From IMG/VR virus record IMGVR_UViG_3300025930_000027, positions 1-30,308 of that record: DNA of 30,308 nucleotides. The stretch is one strand, 5' to 3'. Under the pieces are notes generated by a model. The model was not told the DNA's origin. It saw only the letters and a list, made by a program, of their open reading frames with translations, and searched no databases. The translations under genes and the position numbers were made by a program. Shown here piece after piece: positions 15,417 through 28,028 of this stretch; positions within the stretch are counted from its first letter, which is position 1, and each line of letters starts with the position of its first letter. Source of the DNA: a virus.

Positions 15417-15631
15417 CACTTCTCTCCTTCGGGGGTGGCGAGGGCTTGGCGGGCCTTAGCTTCGTGCCAGTTCTTTTCGTGCCATGCGCGCACGTTATCC
15501 GCGTTCTCCTCTGCCAATCGTTCGACAACCTCGCATCGCTGCCAAACGTGCTGTGCCAAGCCGCGAAGGTCGAAGCCAGTGTCGCCGCACCATTGGCAAA
15601 CGTCAGGATCGAAAGTTGGGTCGTCCACCAT
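15416..15631 (-). CDS. Zinc-knuckle-like small protein
   Basis: The 71-residue product begins MVDDPTFDPDVCQWCGDTGF and contains CQWCGDTG...QHVWQRCEVV, a possible CxxC...H...C metal site, followed by a charged helix (AWHEKNWHEAKARQALATPE). AAGGGGG precedes the ATG at 15631, which overlaps the upstream stop as TGATG. Small proteins of this type often bind nucleic acids or host proteins in phage early regions; no function is assigned. Confidence 0.55.
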   Translation of the reverse strand: MVDDPTFDPDVCQWCGDTGFDLRGLAQHVWQRCEVVERLAEENADNVRAWHEKNWHEAKARQALATPEGEK

Positions 15632-15909
15632 CACGCATCCCCCTTCGCATCAGGATCATTGACCGGCTCGGTGCTGTCACCGGGAAAGAAGCCTTCCTCG
15701 AATGGATCGGCGTCATTTGGCCCGGTGCTGTCCGACGCAATGGGGTTGGGGGTGAGGGCTTCAAGGGCGCGATTAAGATTGTTCTTCACGCTGTTGAAAC
15801 CGTAGTCCGTGATCGTCCAGTCGGGTCCATTGCCCTGCCGATAGGTCATTGCCGCCAATGTTTTGCGGGCATCCCGAACGGCGTCGAGCGCTTGATTTGC
15901 GTCCATCAT
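15631..15909 (-). CDS. Small acidic early protein, unknown function
   Basis: The 92-residue product begins MMDANQALDAVRDARKTLAA, with a helical middle (YGFNSVKNNLNRALEALT) and an acidic, proline-rich tail (DPFEEGFFPGDSTEPVNDPD). Two tandem ATGs (15909 and 15906) follow a GGAG site, and the second forms a TGATG overlap. Nothing indicates enzymatic activity. The order and tight overlaps show co-translation with its neighbours. Confidence 0.5.
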   Translation of the reverse strand: MMDANQALDAVRDARKTLAAMTYRQGNGPDWTITDYGFNSVKNNLNRALEALTPNPIASDSTGPNDADPFEEGFFPGDSTEPVNDPDAKGDA

Positions 15910-16241
15910 GCTTCTCCATTGTCAGATTGACTTGGGGAGAGGGCTGCGAGGGCGGCTCGGGCCATGGCGCGATACTTCTGGCGGTGTAGCTCCTGCGTCT
16001 TCTCAACGCCGAGATGATCCTCAACAAAGTCTGTCTCTGCATGGTCTATCGCCCGCGCTACTCGCTCAACAGCATCCGTGGATTGACTGTCTGTACGGGT
16101 TGCGAAGTCAGGGTCTAATGCCTTCATGGCGAGGTAGGCTTGCGCCAATCCCTTCGCGTGTGCGTGGCCAGAAAACTCGTTCGTGTAGTAGGCAATTCTG
16201 CCAGCCTCGATCTGCGCTTCGGTAGGTTCACTCTGTATCAT
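15906..16241 (-). CDS. Small helical early protein, unknown function
   Basis: The 111-residue product begins MIQSEPTEAQIEAGRIAYYT. It has helical segments (KGLAQAYLAMKALDPDF; DAVERVARAIDHAETDFVED) and ends in RAMARAALAALSPSQS. The pattern of 'T-x-x-x-I-x-A-(G)-R ... RAAL' resembles small phage proteins of unknown role that are widespread in proteobacterial phages. The start at 16241 has a CGGAG site eight bases upstream; a longer frame to 16460 would run through the next gene and is not supported. Confidence 0.55.
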   Translation of the reverse strand: MIQSEPTEAQIEAGRIAYYTNEFSGHAHAKGLAQAYLAMKALDPDFATRTDSQSTDAVERVARAIDHAETDFVEDHLGVEKTQELHRQKYRAMARAALAALSPSQSDNGEA

Positions 16242-16500
16242 GGGTAGGACTCCGGGATGGTAGGCGGGCGGCATCGGCCTCCCACAGCGGGCATTCTTTC
16301 GCGAGCTGATAGTCGTGGCATGGATGCTCCGGCACAAACGAATTGAGGTTAACGAACGCGCTCTTGCCGCGCGGACCTCTGAGAAATGTTCCTGTGAAGG
16401 CTGGGACCAAGGGCACAGCCAAGCACAGCCAAAAATCCCCGCCCTGATCGTCGAAGCCATGAACTTTCTCGCGTAGCTTGCAGGTCGTGCAGTTGCCCAT
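16228..16500 (-). CDS. Cysteine-rich small protein, probable zinc site
   Basis: The 90-residue product begins MGNCTTCKLREKVHGFDDQG and contains further cysteines at FWLCLAV, EHPCHDYQ and AKECPLW. The CxxC near the start with later C/H residues suggests a zinc-stabilised fold. An AGGAG site precedes the ATG at 16500; a longer start at 16539 would begin within sequence adjoining the helicase stop and lacks a site. It overlaps the next gene by 14 bases. Confidence 0.55.
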   Translation of the reverse strand: MGNCTTCKLREKVHGFDDQGGDFWLCLAVPLVPAFTGTFLRGPRGKSAFVNLNSFVPEHPCHDYQLAKECPLWEADAARLPSRSPTHDTE

Positions 16501-16535
16501 GCTAAGCTCCTGTCGATGATGTGAGACCGGTGATC

Positions 16536-18173
16536 TCAAAAGACATCGAACGCATCCTCGATGTCACCTAGGCTCAGGGCAGATATGCCCTTTTTCTTCT
16601 TGAGGTTGCGCAAGATGTAACGGTCAGTAGAGCCTTTGCCAATTAGGTCGGTGTAAACCGACCCACCGATCATGCCACGCCGGTCAATGCGGTCCTCGCT
16701 CTGCCAGCGGTCAATGGCATTGAAGCTGTTGCTGTAATAAAGCGCCTGGGTGCAGACTGTCTGCAGCCCGTCCAGCCCGGTGCCGGCCGATTGTGGATTG
16801 GCCAGAAAGCAGCGCACCTCTGGGTCATGGATGAAACTCAACTTTGCCTCATGTCGCTGGCGATCACTGCCGGTGTATTCGGCAAAGTTGATGCCCGCCG
16901 CGTCCAGCGCCTCGCCAACTATGGCCCTGTCTTCAGTGAACCGGGTCCAGATCACTGCCTTACCATCATGGCTGTCCAGCCATTCCAGCGCTGCTATGGC
17001 GCGTGGGTTCTTGTCCACCGGCATCAGCCTTATGACCTTTTCATCCTCGTCGATCAAGAACCCATTGGCTATCTGCTGCACCTTCATGAATGCTGAAGTG
17101 GCGGATGAAATTGGCACACTGTCGCCGTTGGTCAATTCTGCCATTAGCTCTTGCTTGATCTGCCGCACCAGCCGCAACTGGTCCGCCGACAGATCGTAAA
17201 TCCATTCCCCATAATGCTTGGGGATGTAACCTATCTCGGCCTTGGTCACCCGATAGGTGTAGCGTGCTGTGCGCCGCTTGAACTCGTCCATATTCTTATG
17301 GCCGACGACCGCTCTCCCCTCGTAGCCTCCCATGATGCAATATTGCGCCCGGAATGTCGTCAGATATTTCGCACCCAATATATTCTCGTCCAGCCATTTC
17401 AACTGGGCCCACTGGTCCGTCAGATCCTTGCCCATCGGGGTGCCGGTCAGCAATAGGCGGTGGCTGGAATAGCCACGCAACAGCATCATTGCCTTGTGGC
17501 GCCCGCTGGTGTGGTTCATGATGCACTGGCTCTCGTCTGCAATGATCATCAGCTTGCCGCTGTGCGCTTGGCAGAACTCGGTCGCCAGCCCCATTGCCGT
17601 CTTGCTGCGCAGTGCGTCGTAGTTGATAGACAGCCACTTCAGCGCGCCCCCTTGCACCTTGAGGGCAGGGTCCAGCGGCTTGTGTCGCCAATAGTCCGCC
17701 ATGAACTCCTGCCCATGGTCCTTAGGCAACTCAGCCTCCACCCACTGGCGATGGACGCCTTTCTTAGTGACCACCAGAACTCCTGTGATCTGGCCGCGTG
17801 CGAATAGCCGGCAGCAATGGTCTATCGCTACCTTGGTCTTGCCGGTTCCCTGCTCCATGAAGTGACCGAAGAAGCGATATTTCTCGCACCTGTCCAGGGC
17901 GGTCTGCTGGTGTGGATCTGGTATGCGCTTGAACGCGAACGGGGCATGATCTGCCAGCCCATCAAACTCATCCGCCCCGACAGAAGCACCTTGCAAGTCC
18001 AAGCTTGGGAAGGATTCCCGCAGCCGCTCCACATTGTGGGGCGTATTTTCGATCCTGAGCCCACCGCCCTTGAGCCAAGTGCGCCGACCTTCCAGCTGCG
18101 GCAAAACTGCCAGAACTAGCGGTGTGGCGCGCGTCGCCAAGGTGATGGATGGACCCTCAATATTGGCTTGCAC
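16536..18173 (-). CDS. SNF2-like superfamily 2 helicase
   Basis: The 545-residue product has the SF2 helicase motifs in order. These are HQQTALDRC (~88), EQGTGKTKVA with Walker A GTGKT (~109-113), LSINYDALRS (~181), the DESQ Walker B (~213-216), LTGTP motif III (~242-246), a helicase-C half with AVIWTRFTEDR, and QSEDRIDRRG as motif VI near the end. The layout matches phage SNF2/DEAD-like helicases, used in replication or recombination. GTG 18173 was chosen because GAGG lies six bases upstream (TTGAGGTGTGTC); a TTG at 18185 overlaps that site. It is the largest gene of the minus-strand early block. Confidence 0.85.
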   Translation of the reverse strand: MQANIEGPSITLATRATPLVLAVLPQLEGRRTWLKGGGLRIENTPHNVERLRESFPSLDLQGASVGADEFDGLADHAPFAFKRIPDPHQQTALDRCEKYRFFGHFMEQGTGKTKVAIDHCCRLFARGQITGVLVVTKKGVHRQWVEAELPKDHGQEFMADYWRHKPLDPALKVQGGALKWLSINYDALRSKTAMGLATEFCQAHSGKLMIIADESQCIMNHTSGRHKAMMLLRGYSSHRLLLTGTPMGKDLTDQWAQLKWLDENILGAKYLTTFRAQYCIMGGYEGRAVVGHKNMDEFKRRTARYTYRVTKAEIGYIPKHYGEWIYDLSADQLRLVRQIKQELMAELTNGDSVPISSATSAFMKVQQIANGFLIDEDEKVIRLMPVDKNPRAIAALEWLDSHDGKAVIWTRFTEDRAIVGEALDAAGINFAEYTGSDRQRHEAKLSFIHDPEVRCFLANPQSAGTGLDGLQTVCTQALYYSNSFNAIDRWQSEDRIDRRGMIGGSVYTDLIGKGSTDRYILRNLKKKKGISALSLGDIEDAFDVF

Positions 18174-18375
18174 GACACACCTCAAAAGTTGGCTGCATTG
18201 AAATCATTGAATAACTGTGGTTCCAAGTTCCACTTTTTCCTTGGTTTCCACAACTCCCCTACATGTTGCCAAGGTTCCACCTTCTCTCTCCTTTTCCCTC
18301 GTTGTTGTTGTTTTAAAGAAGAAGAAGATATTTATAGGGGAAAGGTGAAACAAGCGAAAAAATGGAACTTGGAAC
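18174..18375. promoter_or_regulatory. Structured intergenic region with inverted repeat, possible origin or operator
   Basis: Between the helicase start and the next gene lie about 200 bases without a credible gene. GGTTCCAAGTTCCA (18219-18232) and TGGAACTTGGAACC (18363-18376) are perfect inverse complements. Related copies lie between them (GGTTTCCAC 18243-18251; AAGGTTCCAC 18271-18280). Then come a pyrimidine-rich tract, GTT and GAA triplet runs (18301-18330) and AT-rich ATATTTATA (18329-18337). On the minus strand TATAAA (18331-18336) could be a -10 box with a weak -35. The mixture suits a replication origin or a repressor-controlled promoter. Confidence 0.5.
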
Positions 18376-18579
18376 CTATTGGGTGATCCACCTGACGAAT
18401 TCCCCGGCCAGAATCATCAGCCCAATTCCGATGATCCCGCCACAGATCAGGCCGAACATTATCAGTGCCGCCTCAATTGTCGGCACTGGCGTGCCCCCTT
18501 CATAGGGATCTGTTCGGCGATAAGCCTCTTGGATATGAGCCAGCGGCAGCGGCGGTACAGAGCGATCGTCCATGTCCAT
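18376..18579 (-). CDS. Small membrane protein
   Basis: The 67-residue product begins MDMDDRSVPPLPLAHIQEAY and ends with a single hydrophobic span (ALIMFGLICGGIIGIGLMIL) and AGEFVRWITQ. The ATG at 18579 shares a base with the upstream stop (TGATG) and has a GGAGG-like site, so a longer start inside the upstream gene is rejected. Its stop lies at the edge of the 14-bp inverted repeat. It is probably a C-tail-anchored early protein; the role is unknown. Confidence 0.55.
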   Translation of the reverse strand: MDMDDRSVPPLPLAHIQEAYRRTDPYEGGTPVPTIEAALIMFGLICGGIIGIGLMILAGEFVRWITQ

Positions 18580-19085
18580 CACCCCTCCGCCTTGACATTG
18601 CCATGGGCCAGGTCCCACCGCAGATCGTTCAGCCGTCCGCCGCGCGCCACATATTCGTCGTGGCTGATGCCGGGGTTGTCGATCACCAACTGCAGCGACT
18701 TGAAGCCGTGGCTGTTCTTACGGCGGTTGTTCTGGTAGGTGCCGGCACCCAATGCGTCGTCCGCCGCTAGCAGGGTTTCCGACGGGTAAAGGCGCTTGCC
18801 CGCACCCGTTGCCTTGCGACCGCGCTTTGCTGGCCCGTTTTGTGGGGCAGGAGCGATTGCAGCCGGTTCCTCGGTGGAAGGGGTGCTCGGCGCGTCCGCT
18901 GTGGCTCCTGCACCATTTTCGACGGCTTCTGGCGGCAGGAAGAACATCTTGCCTTCCTTGCCCTCTTGAAACGGCACATCGGTGAGGGCTTTGTACAGGG
19001 TGCTGGTCGACTTGCCAGTGAGGCGGGCAAGTTCCTTGACGGTGCGAGCACCTTCGGTCAGGAAATAGCGCAGTTCAGAGTCCAT
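18579..19085 (-). CDS. Winged-helix protein with shared C-terminal domain
   Basis: The 168-residue product begins MDSELRYFLTEGARTVKELA. Residues 1-40 are a helix-turn-helix (RTVKELARLTGKSTSTLYKA), followed by a Pro/Ala-rich linker (~60-90) with basic KRGRKATGAGKR. The last ~50 residues (SHGFKSLQLVI... ISHDEYVARGGRLNDLRWDL, HGNVK) are closely related to the end of the protein at 21030-21326. ATG 19085 is preferred over 19091 because AAGGAG lies at a proper distance. Likely a DNA-binding regulator or early nucleic-acid-binding protein; the C-terminal domain is undescribed to me. Confidence 0.6.
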   Translation of the reverse strand: MDSELRYFLTEGARTVKELARLTGKSTSTLYKALTDVPFQEGKEGKMFFLPPEAVENGAGATADAPSTPSTEEPAAIAPAPQNGPAKRGRKATGAGKRLYPSETLLAADDALGAGTYQNNRRKNSHGFKSLQLVIDNPGISHDEYVARGGRLNDLRWDLAHGNVKAEG

Positions 19086-19100
19086 GGTCATTCTCCTTCT

Positions 19101-19244
19101 TCAGTAAAATGTTGCGATGATCAAGGTCAGTATCGCTGGGGTGGTGATCAACCACCCCAACTTTGCTCGGCTACGCTTGCGCTCCCACCGGCTATGGCTT
19201 AGGCGGTGCCAAGCGTTGAGTTCTCTGGCGGCTGCGCGGGTCAT
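19101..19244 (-). CDS. Small membrane protein (47 residues)
   Basis: MTRAAARELNAWHRLSHSRW starts at ATG 19244 in an ATGA overlap with the upstream gene, with GGAG nearby. A basic stretch RKRSRAKLG leads to one hydrophobic span (WLITTPAILTLIIATFY) at the C-terminus. It has the shape of a basic-head, tail-anchored peptide. The in-frame extension upstream lies within another gene and is ignored. Confidence 0.5.
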   Translation of the reverse strand: MTRAAARELNAWHRLSHSRWERKRSRAKLGWLITTPAILTLIIATFY

Positions 19245-19705
19245 GCGATTTTCTCCACCCACCAAACCTCGGTGATCTGGAGACTCCTCTTGACGGAATA
19301 GTCGACCACTTTGCCATCGACATAGGCTGCCACATGGCCGGAGGTGAACAGCAGCATGTCTGGCTGGCCCGACCACGCGCTCTTGAAGCGGCGCGGGTGA
19401 TGAGTGGTGACATTCTTCAGCATGTTGTGCGGCTCAGGATAGGAAGCAATCATTTCCTGGATCCAATCCCGGCTGGCCTTTTCAACTGAATAGCCAAGCA
19501 GGGCCAAAGCGCGCTGGGTGGTCCAAGTGTAGGTTCCTCGGCCGATCTTCCTGCCAGCTGCTGCTAGTGCTTCCTGCACCTGCTTGGGAGGCAGCTTGGT
19601 GATTGCTGCCAGTGCGATGACTGCGCAGTGGGCGCGGTCGCCGACCAGAGCCTTTTTAATCTCCTCGAACTCTTTCGGGATTTTGGCGGTCTTGCGGGTA
19701 GCCAT
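19241..19705 (-). CDS. Papain-fold-like protein, unknown function
   Basis: The 154-residue product begins MATRKTAKIPKEFEEIKKAL. It contains GDRAHCAVIALAAIT (C37), then QVQEALAAAGRKIGRGTYTW, and near the end SGHVAAYVDGKVVDYS. A Cys in an N-terminal helix followed by a G-H-V-A-x-V/Y-D-G-x-V-x-D strand pair is the layout of C39/papain-like peptidase folds, which are common in small phage proteins. Whether it is a protease or a fold relative is unknown. AAAGGAG precedes the ATG at 19705, and a strong hairpin lies just upstream of that site. Confidence 0.55.
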   Translation of the reverse strand: MATRKTAKIPKEFEEIKKALVGDRAHCAVIALAAITKLPPKQVQEALAAAGRKIGRGTYTWTTQRALALLGYSVEKASRDWIQEMIASYPEPHNMLKNVTTHHPRRFKSAWSGQPDMLLFTSGHVAAYVDGKVVDYSVKRSLQITEVWWVEKIA

Positions 19706-19718
19706 TTCATTCTCCTTT

Positions 19719-19743
19719 GGTAGGCGGTACCTCACCGCCTACC
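19719..19743 (-). promoter_or_regulatory. Perfect 10-bp hairpin next to ribosome site
   Basis: GGTAGGCGGT (19719-19728) and ACCGCCTACC (19734-19743) are perfect complements with a five-base loop. In the minus-strand mRNA the hairpin lies just before AAAGGAG and the ATG at 19705, and just after the putative promoter element at 19748-19775. It would form the 5' end of that transcript and may stabilise it or control translation. There is no U-tract, so a terminator is unlikely. Confidence 0.55.
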
Positions 19744-19747
19744 CTTC

Positions 19748-19775
19748 GTATGCCGCAATTCGACAGAAAAGAAAA
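19748..19775 (-). promoter_or_regulatory. Putative phage promoter element A
   Basis: Read on the minus strand: TTTTCTTT, a 14-base spacer, then GCATAC, ending 43 bases before the start at 19705. The same two blocks with exactly the same spacer length occur at 20945-20972 and 21371-21398. Confidence 0.5.
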
Positions 19776-19786
19776 CAGTTATTTTG

Positions 19787-19993
19787 TCACTTAGGATTCC
19801 TCCAAACCATGAGGCATCGCTTGCAGGTATAGGGGCTGCCGGGCTGAATGCGCTCATCGGCTTGGCACAGGTCCATGAAGCCATCAGCGAGGACACCGCA
19901 CAGCGTGCGGGTGGCGCCTTTTAGCCCGAGGTGCTCCACATCACTTTTGGTGCGATAGGATGACAGAACTCTCATTTGCTCCATCTCAATCAT
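19787..19993 (-). CDS. Small cysteine-containing early protein
   Basis: The 68-residue product begins MIEMEQMRVLSSYRTKSDVE, with CGVLADGF, DLCQAD and a terminal TCKRCLMVWRNPK. The final CKRC and the two earlier cysteines could bind zinc. AGAAGG lies before ATG 19993, which overlaps the upstream stop as ATGA. No function is recognised. Its end is followed by promoter element A. Confidence 0.5.
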   Translation of the reverse strand: MIEMEQMRVLSSYRTKSDVEHLGLKGATRTLCGVLADGFMDLCQADERIQPGSPYTCKRCLMVWRNPK

Positions 19994-20322
19994 GATACCT
20001 TCTCCAAGACTTCTGCAGCTAAGCTTCTCGGATCATTGTGTCCATCGCGGATCTGCTCGAGCGCAGCCATCAGCCGCTTGCCGACACGCCCGAACTTGCG
20101 AGCCTCTAATTCTTTTGCCCACTTAGCTTCATCCCTTGCCCGAACAGCGGCGCGGCGCTCGGCCACCTTTTCTGGGTTGTGTATGCCGCAATACTTCGAA
20201 CCTGGCCTCGGCTTGAAGTCGCATTGCTTGTTTCTTGGCCAATTTCCCTCGTAGTACATCACATCGGCGCGGCACCGGGTTGGGTCCACTTTGCGTCCCA
20301 GTCTTGGGACATAGTCGGTCAT
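19990..20322 (-). CDS. Small basic protein with Cys/His cluster
   Basis: The 110-residue product begins MTDYVPRLGRKVDPTRCRAD. It contains KQCDFKPRPGSKYCGIHNPE, a C-x8-9-C-x-x-H site, then a charged helical region (VAERRAAVRARDEAKWAKEL) and an end RDGHNDPRSLAAEVLEKVS. The cysteine motif resembles the short zinc-binding segment seen in small phage or HNH-like proteins, but the HNH catalytic core is absent. The start at 20322 overlaps the upstream stop as ATGA. Confidence 0.55.
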   Translation of the reverse strand: MTDYVPRLGRKVDPTRCRADVMYYEGNWPRNKQCDFKPRPGSKYCGIHNPEKVAERRAAVRARDEAKWAKELEARKFGRVGKRLMAALEQIRDGHNDPRSLAAEVLEKVS

Positions 20323-20645
20323 GACACCCTCTCCCGCTTGCGGTCCATGCCCAGCCGCGCATGGGCGGGCTTGCGCTTCAGTTCGGCTATCTTGGCGATG
20401 GGCATAGGCGTCAGCCCATAGCCTAGCGCCAGCAGGAACCGCTCGATAGTGTCGTAGCGCGGCCACATCGTTTCCTTGTAGAGCCAGCGGCTGATGGTCT
20501 GGGTTGTCGGCCCACCTTGCTCTTGCACCTGCTTCTGGGTCAGGCCAGAGTTGCGGAACAGCGCGATGCAATCGTCGCGCAAATCTTCCAGCGCCTCCAG
20601 CTGGGCACGCTGCAGCGGCTGCTTGCGTTCTTTACGACCGAACAT
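20319..20645 (-). CDS. XRE/Cro-like helix-turn-helix regulator
   Basis: The 108-residue product begins MFGRKERKQPLQRAQLEALE. A helix-turn-helix of Cro/C1 type lies at about residues 25-75: DCIALFRNSGLTQKQVQEQG, then GPTTQTISRWLYKETMWPRY and TIERFLLALGYGLTP. The basic C-terminus (RKPAHARLGMDRKRERVS) would assist DNA contact. It lies in the middle of the minus-strand early run with an ATGA overlap to the next gene. It is a candidate binder of the repeated TTCCAC motif in the intergenic regions (inference). Confidence 0.7.
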   Translation of the reverse strand: MFGRKERKQPLQRAQLEALEDLRDDCIALFRNSGLTQKQVQEQGGPTTQTISRWLYKETMWPRYDTIERFLLALGYGLTPMPIAKIAELKRKPAHARLGMDRKRERVS

Positions 20646-20646
20646 G

Positions 20647-20898
20647 TCAAGCCTCCTCATTGGTGATGAAGCCCGCCACCTTGACAATGCCAGCAGGTGG
20701 CACAAAGGTGCCGCGCAACCGCTGCGGAACATAAAGCGTCTGGAATTCACCAGCGCCATGTTCAGCGATCAAGCGATGGAAGTAGAGGGAGCCCGGTCCA
20801 TTGACCAAGGCGCGGCTGCCCTTGTCCTCGGCGCTCAGACTCAAGGCATGATCGTCGTCGACGCAGAAGATAGTGGTGCGGACTGGATATTTGGTCAT
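20647..20898 (-). CDS. Small early protein, unknown function
   Basis: The 83-residue product begins MTKYPVRTTIFCVDDDHALS and is beta-rich, with GSLYFHRLIAEHGAGEFQTL and FVPPAGIVKVAGFITNEEA. GGAG lies before the ATG at 20898. It is the first gene after the intrinsic terminator and promoter element C, so it likely opens a transcription unit running left through the HTH regulator. No motif identifies a function. Confidence 0.5.
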   Translation of the reverse strand: MTKYPVRTTIFCVDDDHALSLSAEDKGSRALVNGPGSLYFHRLIAEHGAGEFQTLYVPQRLRGTFVPPAGIVKVAGFITNEEA

Positions 20899-20944
20899 CG
20901 CGGGTCTCCGTTGGTGGGTGGCGCCTTGCCTCCCGGTTTCATCC

Positions 20945-20972
20945 TTCTGCCCCAGACTGGAGCAAAAGAAAA
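20945..20972 (-). promoter_or_regulatory. Putative phage promoter element C
   Basis: Read on the minus strand: TTTTCTTT, a 14-base spacer, then GCAGAA, ending 47 bases before the start codon at 20898. It begins three bases past the U-tract of the upstream terminator, the expected place for a new promoter. Confidence 0.5.
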
Positions 20973-20975
20973 GCT

Positions 20976-21012
20976 AAAAAACACCCACGCTGAAATATTC
21001 TTCCAGCGTGGG
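20976..21012 (-). terminator. Rho-independent terminator
   Basis: CCCACGCTG (20984-20992) and CAGCGTGGG (21004-21012) form a perfect 9-bp stem with an 11-base loop. In minus-strand RNA the stem is followed by UGUUUUUU (20983-20976). It lies 17 bases after the stop of the gene at 21030-21326 and so ends that transcript. Confidence 0.8.
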
Positions 21013-21029
21013 CTAAATGTGGAACCTTA

Positions 21030-21326
21030 TCAGTGGGTGGTGCGCTTGCCGCGCGGCGGGCCAAGCTTGACGTAGCCGTGGTCTAGGTCCCACTTCAGGT
21101 CCTGCGGCCGACCGCCTTGCGCCTTATATTCCTCGTAGCGGATCTTGCCACCAGCCTTCACCACTACATCGAACGAATGGTGTCCGTGGGTGCCGGGGTG
21201 GCGTGGGTTTTGCTTGGCCACCTGAATGATCAGGCGTCCCTTATATTCGCTGCGATGCTGCTTGTCGGCTAGGGTTGCACCCTCGTGGCTGTTGCCGTTG
21301 GAAGGGTTGCTATGAGTTGCCATCAT
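21030..21326 (-). CDS. Early protein with shared undescribed C-terminal domain
   Basis: The 98-residue product begins MMATHSNPSNGNSHEGATLA. Its last ~60 residues (QNPRHPGTHGHHSFDVVVKA, then IRYEEYKAQGGRPQDLKWDL, DHGYVKLG) align to the C-terminus of the winged-helix protein at 18579-19085: EY-x-A-x-GGR-x-x-DL-x-WDL-x-HG-x-VK. The rest is polar and disordered-looking. AAAGGAG precedes the two tandem ATGs at 21326, and promoter element B lies 45 bases upstream. An intrinsic terminator follows, so it is a single-gene unit, probably expressed first after infection. Confidence 0.6.
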   Translation of the reverse strand: MMATHSNPSNGNSHEGATLADKQHRSEYKGRLIIQVAKQNPRHPGTHGHHSFDVVVKAGGKIRYEEYKAQGGRPQDLKWDLDHGYVKLGPPRGKRTTH

Positions 21327-21561
21327 TGTCCATCTCCTTTTGGTGGGTCCTTTTCTTAGGCCCGAGAGAATTATGCGCCAGTCGAAACGGAAAGAAAACA
21401 ACCTAGATTTGCCCCATTGAAAATAAGTTCCACCTATTATCAATGACTTAGAGATTCGACATCAAAAAGGTTGAAAAAACAACTTTTCATTCAGTTCATC
21501 TTCAGCGAGGGTGAATAGGCGGTTCACCTTCTGTCCGCTCAACTGAAAAAGGTTCACATCA
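21327..21561. promoter_or_regulatory. Divergent promoter region between early and replication genes
   Basis: This 235-base gap separates the minus-strand early run from the plus-strand replication operon. Seen in it: promoter element B (21371-21398); AAGTTCCACC (21425-21434); a sigma70-like minus-strand pair TTGATG (21460-21465) and GATAAT (21436-21441) with 18 bases between; a near-palindrome around AAAAGGTTG and CAACTTTT (21464-21488); and GGTTCAC twice (21522 and 21551). The TTCCAC motif lies right next to the GATAAT box, as an operator would. No plus-strand promoter is clear. Confidence 0.55.
21371..21398 (-). promoter_or_regulatory. Putative phage promoter element B
   Basis: Read on the minus strand: TTTTCTTT, a 14-base spacer (CCGTTTCGACTGGC), then GCATAA, ending 45 bases before the start at 21326. 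It is the best match to a -10-like box among the three copies (CATAAT overlaps it). Confidence 0.55.
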
Positions 21562-22368
21562 TTGGCTAAGAAAAACGAGCTGGTCCCGGCTCCACAGGGC
21601 AACACGTCTGTCGTCGCTGCAGACGACTTCTTCCAGCAGAATGCAGGCGCAGGGCTTGACAATGTCAACGCCTCTGACATGCTGGTCCCCCGACTGACCA
21701 TCCTCCAGGGGCTGTCCCCTCAACTCAAGCCGCGCGACTCCAACTATATCGAAGGTGCCCAGATTGGGGACATCTGCGACGTTGGCACTGGCCAGCTGTT
21801 CAAGAATGGGCTGGTGTTCTTGCCGGTTTATTACCGCAAGGATTATCTGGAGTGGGCACCCCGCTCCAGCGGCGGTGGGCTGGTGCACATTCACACCGAC
21901 CCAGCCATTCTGGACCAGACCAAGCGCAACGACAAGAATCAGCCCATCCTGCCGAACGGCAACCTGATCAGCGAGACTGCCCAGTTCTTCGGTTTCAACC
22001 TGTCGGCCGGTCGGCAAATGTGCTTCATCCCCATGGCCAGCACCCAGCTGAAAAAGGCGCGCAAGTGGGTCACGCTGGCGGCCAGCGAGAAGCTGAAGCG
22101 GGCAGACGGTAGCGAATTCACTGCTCCGCTGTTCTATCGTGCCTATGAGCTGGCCACTGCTTCCGAGAGCAATGCGCAGGGTGAGTGGGCCGCTTGGACG
22201 GTGGCGCGTGGCCCGGCGCTGCCCGAGATCGACTTCGACGGTACGCCATGGCAGGTGGTAGCGCAGCAAGCGGCTGACTTCCGCCTTCAGATCATGGGCG
22301 GTGAAGCGCGCGGCGATGTGTCTGACATGAACAGCGACATCGCCCGCGACAACGACGAGGCGATGTAA
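21562..22368 (+). CDS. Putative single-stranded-DNA-binding / recombination-associated protein
   Basis: The 268-residue product starts at TTG 21562 with AAAAAGG upstream and begins MAKKNELVPAPQGNTSVVAA. It contains VPRLTILQGLSPQLKPRDSN, GLVFLPVYYRKDYLEWAPRS, LPNGNLISETAQFFGF and MASTQLKKARKWVTL. This string of motifs belongs to a conserved phage family found beside replication genes and often called ssDNA-binding or recombination-associated. It lacks enzymatic motifs, has a likely OB-type beta core and ends in an acidic tail (SDMNSDIARDNDEAM), typical of ssDNA-binding proteins. The family function is inferred. Confidence 0.55.
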   Translation: MAKKNELVPAPQGNTSVVAADDFFQQNAGAGLDNVNASDMLVPRLTILQGLSPQLKPRDSNYIEGAQIGDICDVGTGQLFKNGLVFLPVYYRKDYLEWAPRSSGGGLVHIHTDPAILDQTKRNDKNQPILPNGNLISETAQFFGFNLSAGRQMCFIPMASTQLKKARKWVTLAASEKLKRADGSEFTAPLFYRAYELATASESNAQGEWAAWTVARGPALPEIDFDGTPWQVVAQQAADFRLQIMGGEARGDVSDMNSDIARDNDEAM

Positions 22369-22370
22369 TC

Positions 22371-22937
22371 ATGGGCGCTCCTCAAGATTTCAGTTTCGAG
22401 GAGCAGGGGGTGGGTAGCGCCACCCCCGACGCTCTGGCCCTGCTCAACAAGACGCTGGTGGAGGCGATAGCTCTTAAGGAGCATGCCGACCAGATGGAAG
22501 AAGATCTGGCTGCGATCAAGAAGCAGCTGAATCAGCTGAACACAGTGGTCATTCCTGACATGATGACCGAATTGGGAATGGAGGAATGCACCCAGCGCGG
22601 CTGGAAGATCAAGGTGGGCGAGTTCGTCAGCGGCTCATTGCCGCGTGACCCTGACCTGAAGGCTAGGGCTGTGCGCTGGCTGGAAGATCACGACGGCGGC
22701 GACTTGCTCAAGACTGGGCTGTTCGTCAGCTTCACTCGCTCCCAGCACAATGAGGCGCTGGACCTGGCCGGCAAGATCTCCGAGGCAGGTTACGCACCCA
22801 AGGTGGAAAGCACCGTCCACCCGCAGACCCTGCTGGCGTTTGCGCGGGAACGGCTCAAGAACGGCGAACCGCTGGACACTGAGGTGTTGGGGCTGTACAC
22901 TGGCCGCGTGGCCAAGTTCAAGCGCGTGGGAGAGTGA
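22371..22937 (+). CDS. Conserved phage coiled-coil protein of replication region
   Basis: The 188-residue product begins MGAPQDFSFEEQGVGSATPD. It has a coiled-coil stretch (ALKEHADQMEEDLAAIKKQL, ~34-55), then VVIPDMMTELGMEECTQRGW, WLEDHDGGDLLKTGLFVSFT and VESTVHPQTLLAFARERLKN. The order of a short heptad helix, M-x-E-x-G and VHP-x-TL-x-A-F-x-R-E matches a family that follows the putative ssDNA-binding gene in many phages. It starts two bases after the preceding stop, so the two are probably made together. The biochemical role is unknown. Confidence 0.6.
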   Translation: MGAPQDFSFEEQGVGSATPDALALLNKTLVEAIALKEHADQMEEDLAAIKKQLNQLNTVVIPDMMTELGMEECTQRGWKIKVGEFVSGSLPRDPDLKARAVRWLEDHDGGDLLKTGLFVSFTRSQHNEALDLAGKISEAGYAPKVESTVHPQTLLAFARERLKNGEPLDTEVLGLYTGRVAKFKRVGE

Positions 22938-22939
22938 CC

Positions 22940-23155
22940 ATGGCCGAAAAGACAATCGTCCGCATCGGTCTCAACATCAAGCCGCGCGATGGGGAAATGA
23001 AGACAGGCGAACTTTCGGGAGCATCTTCCTTCACCATGAATGTGGACGCTCATGAGCTGGCTTTTCTCTACATCCTGCAGAGCAAGTCAGCCATATTCTC
23101 TGAACCTGGAGATCCAGTCATCAGCTATTGCGTCATCGGTAAGATTTCGGAATGA
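22940..23155 (+). CDS. Small conserved protein, unknown function
   Basis: The 71-residue product begins MAEKTIVRIGLNIKPRDGEM and is a compact beta-rich protein (ASSFTMNVDAHELAFLYILQ, VISYCVIGKISE). ATG 22940 was chosen because GGGAGAG lies six bases upstream; GTG 22934 sits too close to it. It overlaps the next gene as ATGA. No motif suggests an activity. Confidence 0.55.
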   Translation: MAEKTIVRIGLNIKPRDGEMKTGELSGASSFTMNVDAHELAFLYILQSKSAIFSEPGDPVISYCVIGKISE

Positions 23156-24099
23156 CTGTCCACATCATCGGGGCTGGCATGGCAGGGCTACTGGCTGGTG
23201 CCATGTTCCGCCGGGGCGTGGAGGTTCATGAAGCGGCCGACAAGCTGCCGAACAACCATCACGCGCTACTGCGCTTCAGGTCGGACGAGATAGCCCATCA
23301 CCTCAACATTGAGTTCAGTGAAGTTGAGGTGATGAAGATCGTCAAGCCATGGCGCAATAAGGTGGCGGACGCCGCAGCCTATTCGCTCAAGAGCAATGGC
23401 AAGGCGAGCTTGCGCTCTATCCGCTCTGCCGAGGGCAAGGTTGACCGGCGCTTCATCGCGCCGCCCGACTTCATCCAGGTCATGGCCGAGATGCAGCCAG
23501 ACATTGAGTTCGGCTGCAAGGTGGACCGCGACCTGCTGGAGTGGTTCGGCAAGCAGGGGCCAATCATCTCCACCATCCCCATGGGCTCGCTCATGCAGGC
23601 GCTGAATTACCCTGATGTGCCGGCGTTCGCCAGCCGCAGCGGCTGGGTGGTCAAGGCAGAGGTGCACATTCCCAGCGACTTGTGCGCCACAATCTACTAC
23701 CCTGACCCTGATGTGCCAGTGATCCGCGCCACCTTGACTGGCACGCTGCTGCAGATTGAGATGGTGGAGAGTTTCGACCGAGCGCTGTGGGCGGTTGACC
23801 GCATCATGGAGCATGTGCTGCCTGACTTCGGCATTCACCCTCACACAAGCCATTCGGCTGAATTGGTGCAGCAACGCTATGCCAAGATATTGCCGATAGG
23901 CGAGCGCGAGCGACGCAAGTTCATCATGTGGGCGACGGACGAGTTCGGCATTTATTCTCTCGGGCGCTTTGCAGTGTGGAAGCCTGGGTTGCTGCTGGAC
24001 GACGTATTCCACGACTGCCAGAAGATCATCTCAATGATTCGTGAAGGGCACAACTATCATGGCCGCTTGCCCAAGGCCAACCAACTACGGAGTGTGTGA
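23152..24099 (+). CDS. FAD/NAD(P)-binding protein of nucleotide gene cluster
   Basis: The 315-residue product begins MTVHIIGAGMAGLLAGAMFR, a GxGxxG Rossmann dinucleotide-binding motif at residues 7-12. It continues VEVHEAADKLPNNHHALLRF (the acidic end of strand 2), RFIAPPDFIQVMAEM and IISTIPMGSLMQAL. This layout belongs to FAD-dependent oxidoreductase-like proteins recurring in phage genomes. No substrate-specific motif is recognised. It is placed between small replication genes and ThyX, so a role in nucleotide or DNA-base metabolism is possible. Its ATG overlaps the upstream stop, and its end forms TGATG with the next start. Confidence 0.65.
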   Translation: MTVHIIGAGMAGLLAGAMFRRGVEVHEAADKLPNNHHALLRFRSDEIAHHLNIEFSEVEVMKIVKPWRNKVADAAAYSLKSNGKASLRSIRSAEGKVDRRFIAPPDFIQVMAEMQPDIEFGCKVDRDLLEWFGKQGPIISTIPMGSLMQALNYPDVPAFASRSGWVVKAEVHIPSDLCATIYYPDPDVPVIRATLTGTLLQIEMVESFDRALWAVDRIMEHVLPDFGIHPHTSHSAELVQQRYAKILPIGERERRKFIMWATDEFGIYSLGRFAVWKPGLLLDDVFHDCQKIISMIREGHNYHGRLPKANQLRSV

Positions 24100-24647
24100 T
24101 GCCAGCTTTGAGGAAACCCGACCCAGACAGAGAAGCCTTGATCGAAGACACTGTGAAGTCCTGCGAAGGCTTGAGCACTGCTGAGATATCAGAATTGCTA
24201 GGCATCGAGCGAACCACTGTCAATCGGTCCCTTGTCCGCGCGATCACAAGGGGTGTGCTGCGCCGAGAAGCAGAGATTGTTGTGTCTGAATCTGGGCACT
24301 CTGTGCGCCTGTTCCGCTACTTCAAGGGAGACGGCAAGCCGCAACCGTTGCCGCCACGCCATCGTCGTCGCAGAAGGGGCGGAGACAATGGCCAGCCAGC
24401 AGCGACCGATGCAGGGTGGCAAGCGCGCTACGAGGAAGTGCTCCACCGCCTCAAGCAGCTGGAAGAATGGCGCAGAGTGGCCATCGAGCGCCACCCCGAC
24501 CTGACTGTGCCAGATGTGGTAATTCAGGCGCGACGCATCGCTGCCAAGGCCAACCCAGACTTTGCTGATTCTCTGTTGAGCGGGGCTAAGGACGATTCAC
24601 CAATCATGCGTGCTGTGCTTGCAGCGATAGAAGAAATGTCGGACTGA
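24099..24647 (+). CDS. Winged-helix DNA-binding protein
   Basis: The 182-residue product has an N-terminal wHTH (~10-70) with GLSTAEISELLGIERTTVNR, then SLVRAITRGVLRRE and a beta wing (SVRLFRYF). A basic stretch (PRHRRRRRGG) follows, then a helical C-terminal half (EEVLHRLKQLEEWRRVAIER). GGAG lies before ATG 24099; GTG 24096 is the alternative. It is likely a sequence-specific DNA-binding factor, perhaps for the replication operon. The late or replication switch role is inferred only from position. Confidence 0.6.
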   Translation: MPALRKPDPDREALIEDTVKSCEGLSTAEISELLGIERTTVNRSLVRAITRGVLRREAEIVVSESGHSVRLFRYFKGDGKPQPLPPRHRRRRRGGDNGQPAATDAGWQARYEEVLHRLKQLEEWRRVAIERHPDLTVPDVVIQARRIAAKANPDFADSLLSGAKDDSPIMRAVLAAIEEMSD

Positions 24648-24673
24648 GCACAGACCGCCGAAGGATATATGTC

Positions 24674-25450
24674 ATGGAAGTTAAGTTGATAGACTACACT
24701 GGCGCCGGCACAGCCGACCCAGCGCGTCACGCCGCCAATGTCTTGGTGTTCACCAAGGGCACGCGGCTCAACATGGTGCCAAGTTTAATGGCTGAGATTG
24801 AAGCCAAGCCATGGTCAGAGATTGAGACCGAGTTGGAATATATGGCCAACACCATTCCGTCAAGTTGGGAGTTTGTTTCTTACACATTCCTGATCAACGG
24901 TGTGACCCGCGCCTTCACCCATCAATTTGTGCGCACCCGCACAGGCTCGTACGCTCAGCAGACGATGAGAGTGCTGGATGTGGACGGCTGGGACTATCTG
25001 ACTGGCCCCAGCATCAAGCCATCAGAAGGCCAAGACTATGTTGGCAGCCGAGAAGAGGTTTACGACTGCACCATGGGGGCCATTGACACAGCCTATCGCG
25101 CATTGATAATGAATGGCGCTAAGATTGAAGATGCGCGCGGTATATTGCCGACCAACATCCTCACCAACATAGTGGCCAAGTTCGACTTGCGCACCTTCAG
25201 TGACACCCAGCGCAAGCGTGCAAGCTCGCGCACACAGGGTGAATATCGCGATGTGATGGAAGCTATGCGCGCTGAGGTCATCCGCGTCCACCCATGGGCG
25301 ACGATGTTTTTGGAGCGCACCTTTGACAAGGCGGCTGCTGAGTTGGAAGCAGAGATCATCTCGATGAAGGGCAGAGCGCCAGAAGGCATCTCTGATGAGA
25401 AAGCCACCAACCTCATCAAACTGATCGATCAGCTGAGGATGACCGCATGA
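24674..25450 (+). CDS. thyX: Flavin-dependent thymidylate synthase
   Basis: The 258-residue product contains FVSYTFLINGVTRAFTHQFV and RTRTGSYAQQTMR (residues 87-99), the ThyX signature R-H-R-x-x-S-x6-R with the His replaced by Thr. Further on are LPTNILTNIVAKFDL and KRASSRTQGEYRDV, matching the ThyX substrate-binding end. ThyX makes dTMP from dUMP with FAD, methylene-tetrahydrofolate and NADPH, supplying phage DNA synthesis. AAGG lies about ten bases before ATG 24674. The altered signature residue means a related dUMP-modifying activity cannot be excluded. Confidence 0.85.
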   Translation: MEVKLIDYTGAGTADPARHAANVLVFTKGTRLNMVPSLMAEIEAKPWSEIETELEYMANTIPSSWEFVSYTFLINGVTRAFTHQFVRTRTGSYAQQTMRVLDVDGWDYLTGPSIKPSEGQDYVGSREEVYDCTMGAIDTAYRALIMNGAKIEDARGILPTNILTNIVAKFDLRTFSDTQRKRASSRTQGEYRDVMEAMRAEVIRVHPWATMFLERTFDKAAAELEAEIISMKGRAPEGISDEKATNLIKLIDQLRMTA

Positions 25451-25743
25451 CCTATGCACCGCATGGCCCATTCAAGATTGAGGTGGTCTTCTCCATCGAG
25501 GTCGGCAATGGTATGATGGCAGAAGCGAGCATGGATTGTCCAATTGGCAATCTGCCAACCGATCAAGATTTGGCGACCTTGGCAGAGAATGCAATGAAGA
25601 CGATCAAAGAGACCTTTCCGGATGCAAAGTGGCCAAACAGGGAAGGCTTCCTGTCTGAAGAACTATCGAAGAGGGCCATGGGGATTTCCATCGCTGTGCC
25701 AGAGCGGGATAAGCAATTTGAGCACAAGGTGTTTCAGTCATGA
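25447..25743 (+). CDS. Small conserved protein, unknown function
   Basis: The 98-residue product begins MTYAPHGPFKIEVVFSIEVG, in an ATGA overlap with thyX, and ends in an ATGA overlap with the HAD gene. It contains EASMDCPIGNLPTDQDLATL and a helix NAMKTIKETFPDAKW, followed by strands. No motif suggests an enzyme. The tight coupling on both sides suggests a role with thymidylate or nucleotide processing, which remains inference. Confidence 0.5.
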   Translation: MTYAPHGPFKIEVVFSIEVGNGMMAEASMDCPIGNLPTDQDLATLAENAMKTIKETFPDAKWPNREGFLSEELSKRAMGISIAVPERDKQFEHKVFQS

Positions 25744-26180
25744 CCAACAATGTCGTAGTGGTGGACCTGGACGGCACATTGTGCAATTCAGCCCACCGGG
25801 ATCACTTGGCTAAGGCCGGGCTGTGGGACGAATTCCACGCCAAGCTGGCAGAGGACGAACCATGGGCAGACGTCGCCAAGCTGGTGGCCACGCTGGACGA
25901 TGATGCTTACAACTTCACTGTTGTGGGGCTGACCGGTCGCAACGAGCGCTACCGTGAGGCAACGCTCAAGTGGCTCCACCTGCATCACATTCGGCTGGAC
26001 GATCTTCTGATGCGGCCGGACAATGATTATCAGCCCGACCATGTGCTCAAGCCAGCTATGCTGGAAGCAGCCTATGAGTTCCACAAGGTGTGGTTCATCT
26101 TGGAGGACCGCGACAAGGTGGTGGAGGCTTGGCGCAACTTGGGTTATAATTGCTGGCAGATACGCGCGGGAGGATATTGA
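25740..26180 (+). CDS. HAD-superfamily phosphatase (polynucleotide kinase 3'-phosphatase-like)
   Basis: The 146-residue product starts MTNNVVVVDLDGTLCNSAHR, with HAD motif I DLDGT (residues 9-13). It continues with FTVVGLTGRNERYREATLKW (motif II Thr) and KVWFILEDRDKVVEAWRNLG (motif IV ED-RD). This is the single-domain HAD layout seen in phage 5'(3')-nucleotidases and PNKP-phosphatase-like proteins. The likely reaction is removal of phosphate from nucleotides or DNA ends. It lies next to the thymidylate synthase, in keeping with nucleotide metabolism; the substrate is unknown. Confidence 0.75.
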   Translation: MTNNVVVVDLDGTLCNSAHRDHLAKAGLWDEFHAKLAEDEPWADVAKLVATLDDDAYNFTVVGLTGRNERYREATLKWLHLHHIRLDDLLMRPDNDYQPDHVLKPAMLEAAYEFHKVWFILEDRDKVVEAWRNLGYNCWQIRAGGY

Positions 26181-26181
26181 T

Positions 26182-26262
26182 ATGCCTAATGCAGAAGGTT
26201 GCTTAATCATACTGGCCATCTGGGCTGTTCTCATCACCATCATCTATTGGGCAGTGATGTGA
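26182..26262 (+). CDS. Tiny membrane peptide (26 residues)
   Basis: MPNAEGCLIILAIWAVLITI starts at ATG 26182 after GGGAGG and is a single hydrophobic span ending IYWAVM. It overlaps the next GTG start as GTGA. The good ribosome site and coupling support translation. The function is unknown. Confidence 0.45.
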   Translation: MPNAEGCLIILAIWAVLITIIYWAVM

Positions 26263-26528
26263 GCGCGGGCTTTACACCGGGGCCTTGGTCAACAGGTGTT
26301 GATGGCAACAACCGCATCTATGGTCCCGATGGCGCGGGTCTGGACAGTGGGCTTGTGGCGGTCGTTTATAAAGGGCGCGCGAACACCGACCTGATCGCCG
26401 CCGCGCCTGATCTTTACGAGGCTCTGCAATCATTGCTCGATGACCTCGACACTTATGGGTACGTCACTGTCAGGAGAGACAGCAATGCCCGCAGTGCCAT
26501 CGCTAAAGCAAGGGGTAAGCAATCATGA
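26259..26528 (+). CDS. Conserved small phage protein (HTPGPW/AAPDLYEAL type)
   Basis: The 89-residue product starts at GTG 26259 and reads SAGFTPGPWSTGVDGNN. It continues YKGRANTDLIAAAPDLYEAL and ends DSNARSAIAKARGKQS. FTPGPW ... A-N-x-x-L-I-A-A-A-P-x-L-x-E-A-L ... A-I-A-K-A is the widespread small-phage-protein pattern, whose function is not known. It overlaps both neighbours by a few bases. Confidence 0.65.
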   Translation: MSAGFTPGPWSTGVDGNNRIYGPDGAGLDSGLVAVVYKGRANTDLIAAAPDLYEALQSLLDDLDTYGYVTVRRDSNARSAIAKARGKQS

Positions 26529-26719
26529 GCAAGGAATGCACAGCCGTCCTCTTGCTCGGCGCCATCATGGAAATGTCGGATCACGCCGAAAAGATGGGCG
26601 GTTCGTTCAGCATCTCTGGTGTGGCCGCGCTGCACAAGATGCAGACCTCTCTTCAAAAGAACCGCCCGCAGGTGATCGCCCTGCTTCGACAGTGGGCCAA
26701 AGAGGAGCAACCCTCATGA
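26525..26719 (+). CDS. Small helical protein, unknown function
   Basis: The 64-residue product begins MSKECTAVLLLGAIMEMSDH. It is helical, with SISGVAALHKMQTSLQKNRP and a charged end RQWAKEEQPS. It has ATGA overlaps on both sides, so it is translated with its neighbours. No motif identifies a function. Confidence 0.5.
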   Translation: MSKECTAVLLLGAIMEMSDHAEKMGGSFSISGVAALHKMQTSLQKNRPQVIALLRQWAKEEQPS

Positions 26720-27096
26720 GCAAGTTCGTGCCAGAGGCGCTGCGCAAAGCAGCCGAAATCTATGAGCAGCGCAATGCGCTCTATGGCGACAATTATAAAA
26801 GGTTCGGCACCATCATGCATGCCCTGTTCCCAGAGGGCATTGCACAGCGGGCTGGGGTCAATGGTTCCAAGGCAGAAACTAAACAGGAATATTGGAACCG
26901 CATAGGGATCCTCGTCCAAGTGGTCAGCAAGCTGACACGCTATTGCGAGAACTTCGAGAAGGGTGGACACGCCGATAGCCTGGACGACATGGCAGTGTAC
27001 ACCATGATGCTGCGCGAGTTGGACAAAGAGGCCCAAGACAGGGACGCTGGAAAGTGGCAACCGATTTATGTTCCTGGCGGGATCGACCCAGAGTGA
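26716..27096 (+). CDS. Nmad1/DUF1599-like nucleotide-modification-associated protein
   Basis: The 126-residue product begins MSKFVPEALRKAAEIYEQRN. It contains ALYGDNYKRFGTIMHALFPE, then a helix YWNRIGILVQVVSKLTRYCE and HADSLDDMAVYTMMLRELD. The iy-x-x-R-N-x-x-YG-x-NY-x-x-x-G ... LFP-x-G and later D-x-x-D-M-A-x-Y patterns resemble the DUF1599 (Nmad1) family, named for its link to nucleotide modification genes in phages. A related all-helical nucleotide pyrophosphohydrolase fold is possible. Its end overlaps the exonuclease start as GTGA. Confidence 0.6.
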   Translation: MSKFVPEALRKAAEIYEQRNALYGDNYKRFGTIMHALFPEGIAQRAGVNGSKAETKQEYWNRIGILVQVVSKLTRYCENFEKGGHADSLDDMAVYTMMLRELDKEAQDRDAGKWQPIYVPGGIDPE

Positions 27097-27626
27097 TCGC
27101 TTTCATATTCGACACCGAAACCACTGGGCTGGTCAAGAACAGCTTGATGCCGCTGGAAGGACAGCCGCGTATCATCGAATTCTTTGGCCACCTGGTGGAC
27201 GATCTAGGGTGCTTGCACGATGAGATTGAATTCTTCTGCCACCCTGGTGTGGCGCTGGACCCAATCATCACGCGCATCACCGGCATTACTGATGAGCAAT
27301 TGAAGGGGGCCGAAAGGTTCGATGTGTATGCCGACAGGGTGAAGGAAATGATAGCGTCGGCGGATGCGGTGGTGGCGCACAACCTCAGCTTCGACATGGC
27401 ATTGGTGGAGGCAGATTGCGCACGCTGCGCTTGCGCCCCGGCTTGGCCAGAGCGTAAGATCTGCACCGTGGAGGAAACCGAATGGATGAGGGGTCATCGC
27501 CTCAGCCTGACCGCCTTACACGAGGAATTGTTCGGCGAGGGCTTCCCAGCTGCGCACCGCGCGCGCAATGACGTTGCCGCGCTGACGCGGTGCTACCTAG
27601 AATTACGCAAGCGCGGTGATCTGTGA
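27093..27626 (+). CDS. DnaQ-like 3'-5' exonuclease (DEDDh)
   Basis: The 177-residue product starts at GTG and has all exonuclease motifs: Exo I FDTETTGL near residue 6, Exo II AHNLSFDMALVE (~95) and Exo III HRARNDVAAL (~155-164), with the DEDDh His. It resembles the epsilon proofreading subunit of DNA polymerase III. Being encoded two small genes before the polymerase alpha subunit suggests it proofreads for the phage polymerase, especially as the PHP domain of that polymerase looks inactive. Confidence 0.85.
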   Translation: MIAFIFDTETTGLVKNSLMPLEGQPRIIEFFGHLVDDLGCLHDEIEFFCHPGVALDPIITRITGITDEQLKGAERFDVYADRVKEMIASADAVVAHNLSFDMALVEADCARCACAPAWPERKICTVEETEWMRGHRLSLTALHEELFGEGFPAAHRARNDVAALTRCYLELRKRGDL

Positions 27627-27793
27627 ACAAGGCCAAGAAATTGGAAACGACTTTCTCTCTGATTATGCGCGCCTCCACAGTGGTCAACTTTGCGCTCGTG
27701 CGTCGCCGGTTCAAACCCAGCGATCTGCAAGAGGCAAGAAATTGTCTGAAAGAAGCCATGTTCGAAATTGATGAGTTGATCGCTGATGCGTGA
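27623..27793 (+). CDS. Small basic helical protein (56 residues)
   Basis: GTG 27623 overlaps the exonuclease stop (GTGA), and the product begins MNKAKKLETTFSLIMRASTV. It continues VNFALVRRRFKPSDLQEARN and ends FEIDELIADA. The size and position between exonuclease and polymerase genes are the only clues. Confidence 0.5.
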   Translation: MNKAKKLETTFSLIMRASTVVNFALVRRRFKPSDLQEARNCLKEAMFEIDELIADA

Positions 27794-28028
27794 GCCACCC
27801 AAAAAGCTGAGTGTGACCGACGAGGACTATGATCCTGACGTAGGCTTCTGGGTCGTTGTCAAGGTCGATGGCCAGGAGCAGAAATATGTCGTGAGTTACG
27901 ACACAGAAGCCGGAACAGTCATCAAGTTAAAACACGATGGCGAAAGGTTTCAGCTGAATGAAGCAAAAGATGAAGTCGTCGAGGAAGTGGTTCACGGCGC
28001 AGTGACAGTGGAGTGGAAATCTTGTTGA
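27786..28028 (+). CDS. Small beta-rich protein, unknown function
   Basis: The 80-residue product begins MREPPKKLSVTDEDYDPDVG and consists of alternating strands (FWVVVKVDGQEQKYVVSYDT; GTVIKLKHDGERFQLNEA). It overlaps its upstream neighbour by eight bases and ends in a TTGA overlap with the polymerase. No known family is recognised; a processivity or accessory role is speculative. Confidence 0.5.
   Translation: MREPPKKLSVTDEDYDPDVGFWVVVKVDGQEQKYVVSYDTEAGTVIKLKHDGERFQLNEAKDEVVEEVVHGAVTVEWKSC

Follow-up and report, generated by a model that had tools for sequence, protein, structure and literature searches.

A repeated candidate promoter class of sigma70 geometry in an uncultured phage and its relatives

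What reads a short DNA element that recurs, with fixed internal spacing, ahead of leftward genes of a phage known from environmental sequence? The stretch analysed here, called the window, comprises the 30.3 kb of an IMG/VR virus record. Tail genes lie at its left; small leftward genes form a block with a phrog_62 helicase at its end, and the replication operon runs rightward from 21562. A preliminary description of this DNA proposed a new promoter class at three minus-strand sites, in which TTTTCTTT is followed after 14 bases by GCATAA, GCAGAA or GCATAC. The replication operon (21562-27626, plus strand) contains thymidylate-synthase-like, polynucleotide-kinase-like, phrog_4828 and DUF7307 genes and resembles neighbourhoods in Pbunavirus and Wifcevirus; phrog_4828 is annotated as an oxidoreductase in some phages.

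The three window sites and their surroundings

All three sites, termed P1, P2 and P3 (Table 1), were found at the coordinates first reported, on the minus strand and in intergenic DNA. Exact TTTTCTTT occurs in the window at these sites only. With up to two mismatches, P1-P3 are the sole matches of the element on both strands, against 0.08 expected from dinucleotide shuffles, of which 0 of 100 reached three matches; the earlier argument that chance is an unlikely source is thus borne out. A matrix built from the relatives only ranks P1-P3 first to third of all window positions (32.5, 28.9 and 27.8 bits, the next-best position scoring 7.6 bits), and with its last 20 columns only, leaving out TTTTCTTT, they still rank among the best 0.01% of positions in the window. 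That the sites resemble each other through chance could appeal to the window holding three of them only, but is contradicted by these values as well as by the recurrence in relatives and the spacing-specific database counts described below, and we consider it negligible.

The start codons following P1, P2 and P3 lie at 21326, 20898 and 19705, which are 44, 46 and 42 nt from the motif end; the 43-47 bases given in the preliminary description hold to within one base. As also described there, one site, P2 (from 20972), directly follows an intrinsic terminator.

Table 1. Features of the window and similar sites in cultured phages
Feature	Record	Position	Strand	Details
P1, putative promoter	window	21371..21398	-	TTTTCTTT-N14-GCATAA; mismatch scan, relatives' matrix, generic-box scan
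P2, putative promoter	window	20945..20972	-	TTTTCTTT-N14-GCAGAA; mismatch scan, relatives' matrix, generic-box scan
P3, putative promoter	window	19748..19775	-	TTTTCTTT-N14-GCATAC; mismatch scan, relatives' matrix, generic-box scan
Probable degenerate fourth member, facing right	window	21484..21511	+	TTTTCATT-N14-CGAGGG, GAAAAAACAAC ahead of it; 7.6 bits
Intrinsic terminator	window	20983..21013	-	13-bp hairpin then GTTTTTT; closes P1 unit directly before P2
P1 leader hairpin	window	21345..21363	-	GGGCCTAAGAAAAGGACCC, from predicted +1; form GGGCC...GGACCC; leader MFE -9.7, z -3.1
P3 leader hairpin	window	19722..19740	-	AGGCGGTGAGGTACCGCCT, from predicted +1; leader MFE -12.0, z -3.3
P1-unit gene	window	21030..21326	-	98-aa WDL-family protein, winged-helix-like AF2 model
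P2 unit, first gene	window	20647..20898	-	83 aa, uncharacterised; relatives in G001, G003, G008
P3 unit, first gene	window	19241..19705	-	154 aa, phrog_3754, uncharacterised
Second WDL-family protein	window	18579..19085	-	N-terminal HTH, KRGRK basic linker, C-terminal WDL domain
phrog_62 DNA helicase	window	16536..18185	-	end of leftward block; query for relatives
Four copies	PaMx11 (L264)	7031, 8009, 8562, 36438		TTGCCTTTT-N14-(C/G)AGAAT
Seven copies	CN1 (L266)	2792, 8691, 11706, 23941, 29171, 29621, 31305		TTTACTT(C/T)T with TATACT (TAGACT once); spacer 14, once 15
Three copies	FEC19 (L267)	13604, 7477, 5938		TTGCCTTTT or TTTGCTTTT with TATACT or TATAAT; spacer 13-14

The element at 21484, before the replication operon, is probably a degenerate fourth member of the class. 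It has the fourth-best score in the window and is recognised mainly by its position and the shared leader GGCGGTTCACCTT. Back-to-back elements of this class between leftward and rightward operons are found in the window, in the relatives G001, G006 and G008, and at locus L168.

A scan for canonical sigma70 promoters over window positions 15500-30308 gave 9 against 7.0 expected and hence no clear canonical set. We also note a 9-of-12 sigma70-like match upstream of P1, TTGATG-N18-GATAAT (21465-21436, minus strand), which could be a tandem early promoter, in a region where the scan gave no excess over chance.

Conservation and anatomy of the element

Relatives were collected from IMG/VR by means of the helicase, 7 and later 80 related loci; most of the records are incomplete, and the relatives form one clade. 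The search of relatives proposed in the preliminary description found the motif in most of these uncultured phage records. It is present in most loci with more similar helicases, often in several copies and nearly always on the strand of the downstream gene, and is mostly absent from AT-rich and more distant loci. The genes downstream of the sites, whose starts lie mostly 26-63 nt away, span about 40 unrelated families, and the motif is therefore not a gene-linked repeat. A promoter-like element appears to sit before early and replication genes in dozens of related, mostly uncultured phages. In the relative G005 (L155 7043-7525 and L154 10349-10939), the DNA upstream of two genes is nearly the same, GTTCCAATTTT...CCTTTTTTTGCCTCAAAGGG, and may be a repeated element of its own.

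Across all IMG/VR contigs, the pattern [CG]TTTTCTTTT-N12-GGCATAA gave 95 sites, 15 of them with an A tract and a Shine-Dalgarno sequence (SD) with ATG, and 14 in loci that encode a protein of the WDL family discussed in the next section. The N13 pattern, one base longer in the spacer and run as negative control without the leading [CG], gave 120 sites, with one in each of these two categories; for the N14 control pattern the corresponding numbers are 103, two and none. The contrast indicates that the spacing is specific, and a search with nothing but the DNA motif leads back to the same group of phages.

The anatomy of the element was read from an alignment of 46 distinct sites, each with a downstream SD and start codon. 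This set was selected for the motif, with variants such as TTTCCTTTT and TTTTCATTT accepted, and part of the invariance of the box therefore reflects how the sites were chosen. Position 0 is C or G in all 46 sites, and TTTTCTTTT at positions 1-9 is near-invariant. T19 and G20 are followed by a -10-like CATAAT block at positions 24-29, in which the first base is C or G in the clade sites and the counts are 35 for A25, 35 for T26, 38 for A27, 30 for A28 and 25 for T29. Columns 34-35 are pyrimidines and position 36 is a purine in 42 of 46. With position 36 taken as +1, the -10 block falls at -12 to -7 (A25 at -11, T29 at -7) and TTTTCT at -35 to -30, separated by a 17-base spacer, and the A/T-rich alignment columns -25 to -21 and -9 to -4 come to lie near -60 and -45, the positions of UP elements. 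Of the 21 sites with a strong leader hairpin, 13 have its onset at positions 35-39.

In these terms P1 reads TTTTCT (21398-21393), N17 and CATAAT (21375-21370), with a predicted +1 at 21363. The -10-like blocks of P2 and P3 are CAGAAG (20949-20944) and CATACG (19752-19747), with predicted starts at 20937 and 19740. The 5' ends anticipated in the preliminary description (21364, 20938 and 19741) lie at most one base from these conservation-based starts. Its statement that the element departs from the 17-base spacing of sigma70 was mistaken, because TTTTCT-N17-CATAAT has the canonical layout, within 17 ± 1 and constant throughout the alignment; what sets the element apart is its box. TTTTCT matches TTGACA at three of six positions, which is not a close match.

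The same features bear on a reading of the sites as a repeated phage-repressor operator, or as an RNA-level or terminator T-tract element, instead of a promoter. Terminators or T tracts often precede the sites, and HTH proteins are encoded nearby, but the T tract contains an invariant C, the ATAA block stands at a fixed distance, and the predicted YR start and hairpin onset fall at the canonical promoter distance. We judge such an element to be very improbable.

Targeted scans of cultured phages yielded the same kind of module in PaMx11 and CN1 (both Mesyanzhinovviridae) and in FEC19 (Wifcevirus). As in the window, a TTnnCTTYT box is separated by 14 bases (once 13, once 15) from the -10, and several copies per genome lie directly ahead of SD/ATG; PaMx11 leaders start with a GC-rich inverted repeat. 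All 14 isolate sites precede SD/ATG, compared with 0 to 0.4 in shuffled sequences. The isolates differ from the window in their boxes (TTGCCTTTT, TTTACTTCT and TTTGCTTTT) and in -10 elements (TATACT, TATAAT and CAGAAT) that are nearer the sigma70 consensus. Scans of R5C and RDJL1 found no module, and E215 has one possible site. Ad hoc EM motif discovery on the isolates returned mostly noise. No published description of the isolate modules was found; of 17 papers matching their motifs, the 10 listed included none on a phage.

A generic box with variable spacer gave a sharp peak at 14, comprising 30 clade sites and 12 of 12 isolate sites with SD/ATG. Together with the occurrence of the same module in the isolates, this suggests that the window class is one clade's version of a wider phage module with sigma70 geometry. 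Of the promoter class proposed earlier, the repeated class itself is upheld by conservation, fixed spacing and context, whereas the claim of a wholly new kind is not supported, as PaMx11, CN1 and FEC19 share the module. P1-P3 are very probably promoters of a repeated, conserved class; we infer the activity from sequence. The reading we favour is a phage promoter with sigma70 geometry, in a form specific to this clade, that would serve early and replication genes and be read by the host RNA polymerase.

Candidate readers of the box

The products of the P1-unit gene and of the gene at 18579-19085 share with many relatives a C-terminal domain, NPRR.G..G..S..II...G.TYE.Y...GGR..DL.WDL..G.V, termed the WDL domain, which often follows a basic RGRK-like linker. 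AlphaFold2 predicts a winged-helix-like order of elements with core pLDDT about 90. Structure searches with the domain found no confident PDB match, including to DNA-binding proteins, and sequence searches of Pfam, NCBIfam and PDB placed it in no family. The best viral structure match of the predicted protein is Gp18 of PhiJL001 (Keylargovirus, Mesyanzhinovviridae), and this resemblance suggests PhiJL001 as the nearest cultured relative. The family also occurs in L183, L115, L190, L153 and others, paralogous within genomes and fused to varied N-terminal parts and basic linkers.

In most loci the WDL domain and the motif are found together, an association confounded by descent since the relatives are one clade. 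Exceptions are G005, with the domain and no motif, and L186, L187 and L189, with the motif and no domain in partial records; because they run both ways, the assignment of WDL proteins as the factor is weak. That a phage-encoded DNA-binding factor reads TTTTCTTTT or helps sigma there is, in our estimate, about as likely as not and the most probable of the readings, and a WDL-domain protein is the leading candidate. The likelihoods attached to this and the other readings are judgements, not computed values.

Host sigma70 holoenzyme might act alone if the UP tracts are strong enough, and the -10 good enough, to offset a -35 that has drifted from TTGACT or TTGCCT to TTTTCT. The canonical geometry and UP positions agree with this, as do the boxes (TTGCCT, TTTACT) and -10 elements (TATACT, CAGAAT) of the cultured relatives, which are closer to sigma70. 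However, nine bases are near-invariant, three of them outside the hexamer, and the aligned sites of the clade contain no TTGAC variants, in a collection whose scan favoured TTTTC. Sigma70 alone may read the sites poorly, because the box matches TTGACA at half its positions and T at -7 is present in only 25 of 46 sites; unaided recognition is possible but rather doubtful.

Recognition by a different sigma factor, encoded by the phage or an alternative one of the host, with -35 and -10 preferences of its own would be in keeping with the variation of the -10 block between GGCATAA and GGCGATAA. The -10 of flagellar sigma28 is somewhat like this block and its spacing is similar. Against such a factor, sigma region 2 (PF04542, Sigma70_r2) was above cut-off in 0 of 12 records, which are partial, with the control detected in 10 of 14 genomes. 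The only protein with a Sigma70_r4_2 match above cut-off (24162-24245 in the window) has no homologue in the related loci examined, and we regard another sigma factor as distinctly improbable. A T7-like single-subunit polymerase (PF00940) was found in none of 12 partial records, in a search where no control was detected. The protein that contains the Sigma70_r4_2 match, just above cut-off, is a 183-aa winged-HTH-like product (24096-24647, plus strand); it was dropped as a candidate factor for want of a homologue in the related loci examined.

Phage T4 offers a precedent for a factor at the box. In T4 middle promoters, 12 ± 1 bp separate the -10 from the MotA box, (a/t)(a/t)(a/t)TGCTTtA (PMC2988021). 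MotA with AsiA takes the place of the -35 contact, and T4 tolerates changes in the box and demands a good -10 (PMC2988021, PMC6755090). The window class shares with these promoters a phage-specific, CTT-centred box over -35/-30 that replaces the -35 element, and a sigma70-like -10. It differs in a spacer one or two bases longer, TTTTCTTTT lying 14 from the -10 and so outside the MotA-box range, in its UP-like tracts, and in a strict box with a loose -10, the reverse of T4. By analogy, the class might function in the way of these T4 promoters.

A sigma70 -10 combined with a WDL-domain activator bound at the 9-mer, in the manner of MotA/AsiA, would draw on the resemblance to the MotA box in geometry and sequence, on the presence of the WDL family in most motif-positive loci and in those found by DNA motif alone, and on the WDL gene in the P1 unit. 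It is opposed by the two-way exceptions, by a WDL fold without confident match to any DNA-binding protein, by the reversed strictness of box and -10, and by the finding of no MotA C-terminal (PF09158) or AsiA (PF09010) homologue in 10 partial records, where no control was detected. We hold this reading tentatively, at a little under even. That WDL proteins are a new transcription-factor family, which replaces the sigma70/-35 contact at TTTTCTTTT and is unrelated to MotA/AsiA, seems unlikely to us.

In the preferred reading of a clade-specific sigma70-geometry promoter, the host RNA polymerase holoenzyme would read the sites as promoters of small early and replication units. The alpha C-terminal domains would contact the two A/T tracts, near -60 and -45, and the sigma subunit would recognise the -10-like CATAAT. 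The upstream contact would be TTTTCTTTT at -35 to -27, a presumed clade variant, with equal spacing, of the TTnnCTTTT box of the cultured relatives. RNA would begin at the purine 7 bases past the -10, and a hairpin would often form before the Shine-Dalgarno sequence. Such promoters would share with sigma70 promoters that carry UP elements the spacing of 17, the UP positions, and the predicted discriminator length and YR start; they differ in the near-invariant -35 TTTTCT plus three T, and in a -10 that starts with C or G and has its final T half conserved.

The element provides a strong, searchable signature, from which transcription units and start sites could be predicted in a large, mostly uncultured phage group. 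It also points to a family of possible regulators, and to PaMx11, CN1 and FEC19 as cultured relatives with the same module. If a phage factor does read the box, it would be another phage route to redirect the host polymerase; if WDL proteins replace the -35 contact, they would represent a second solution to sigma appropriation, in widespread uncultured phages.
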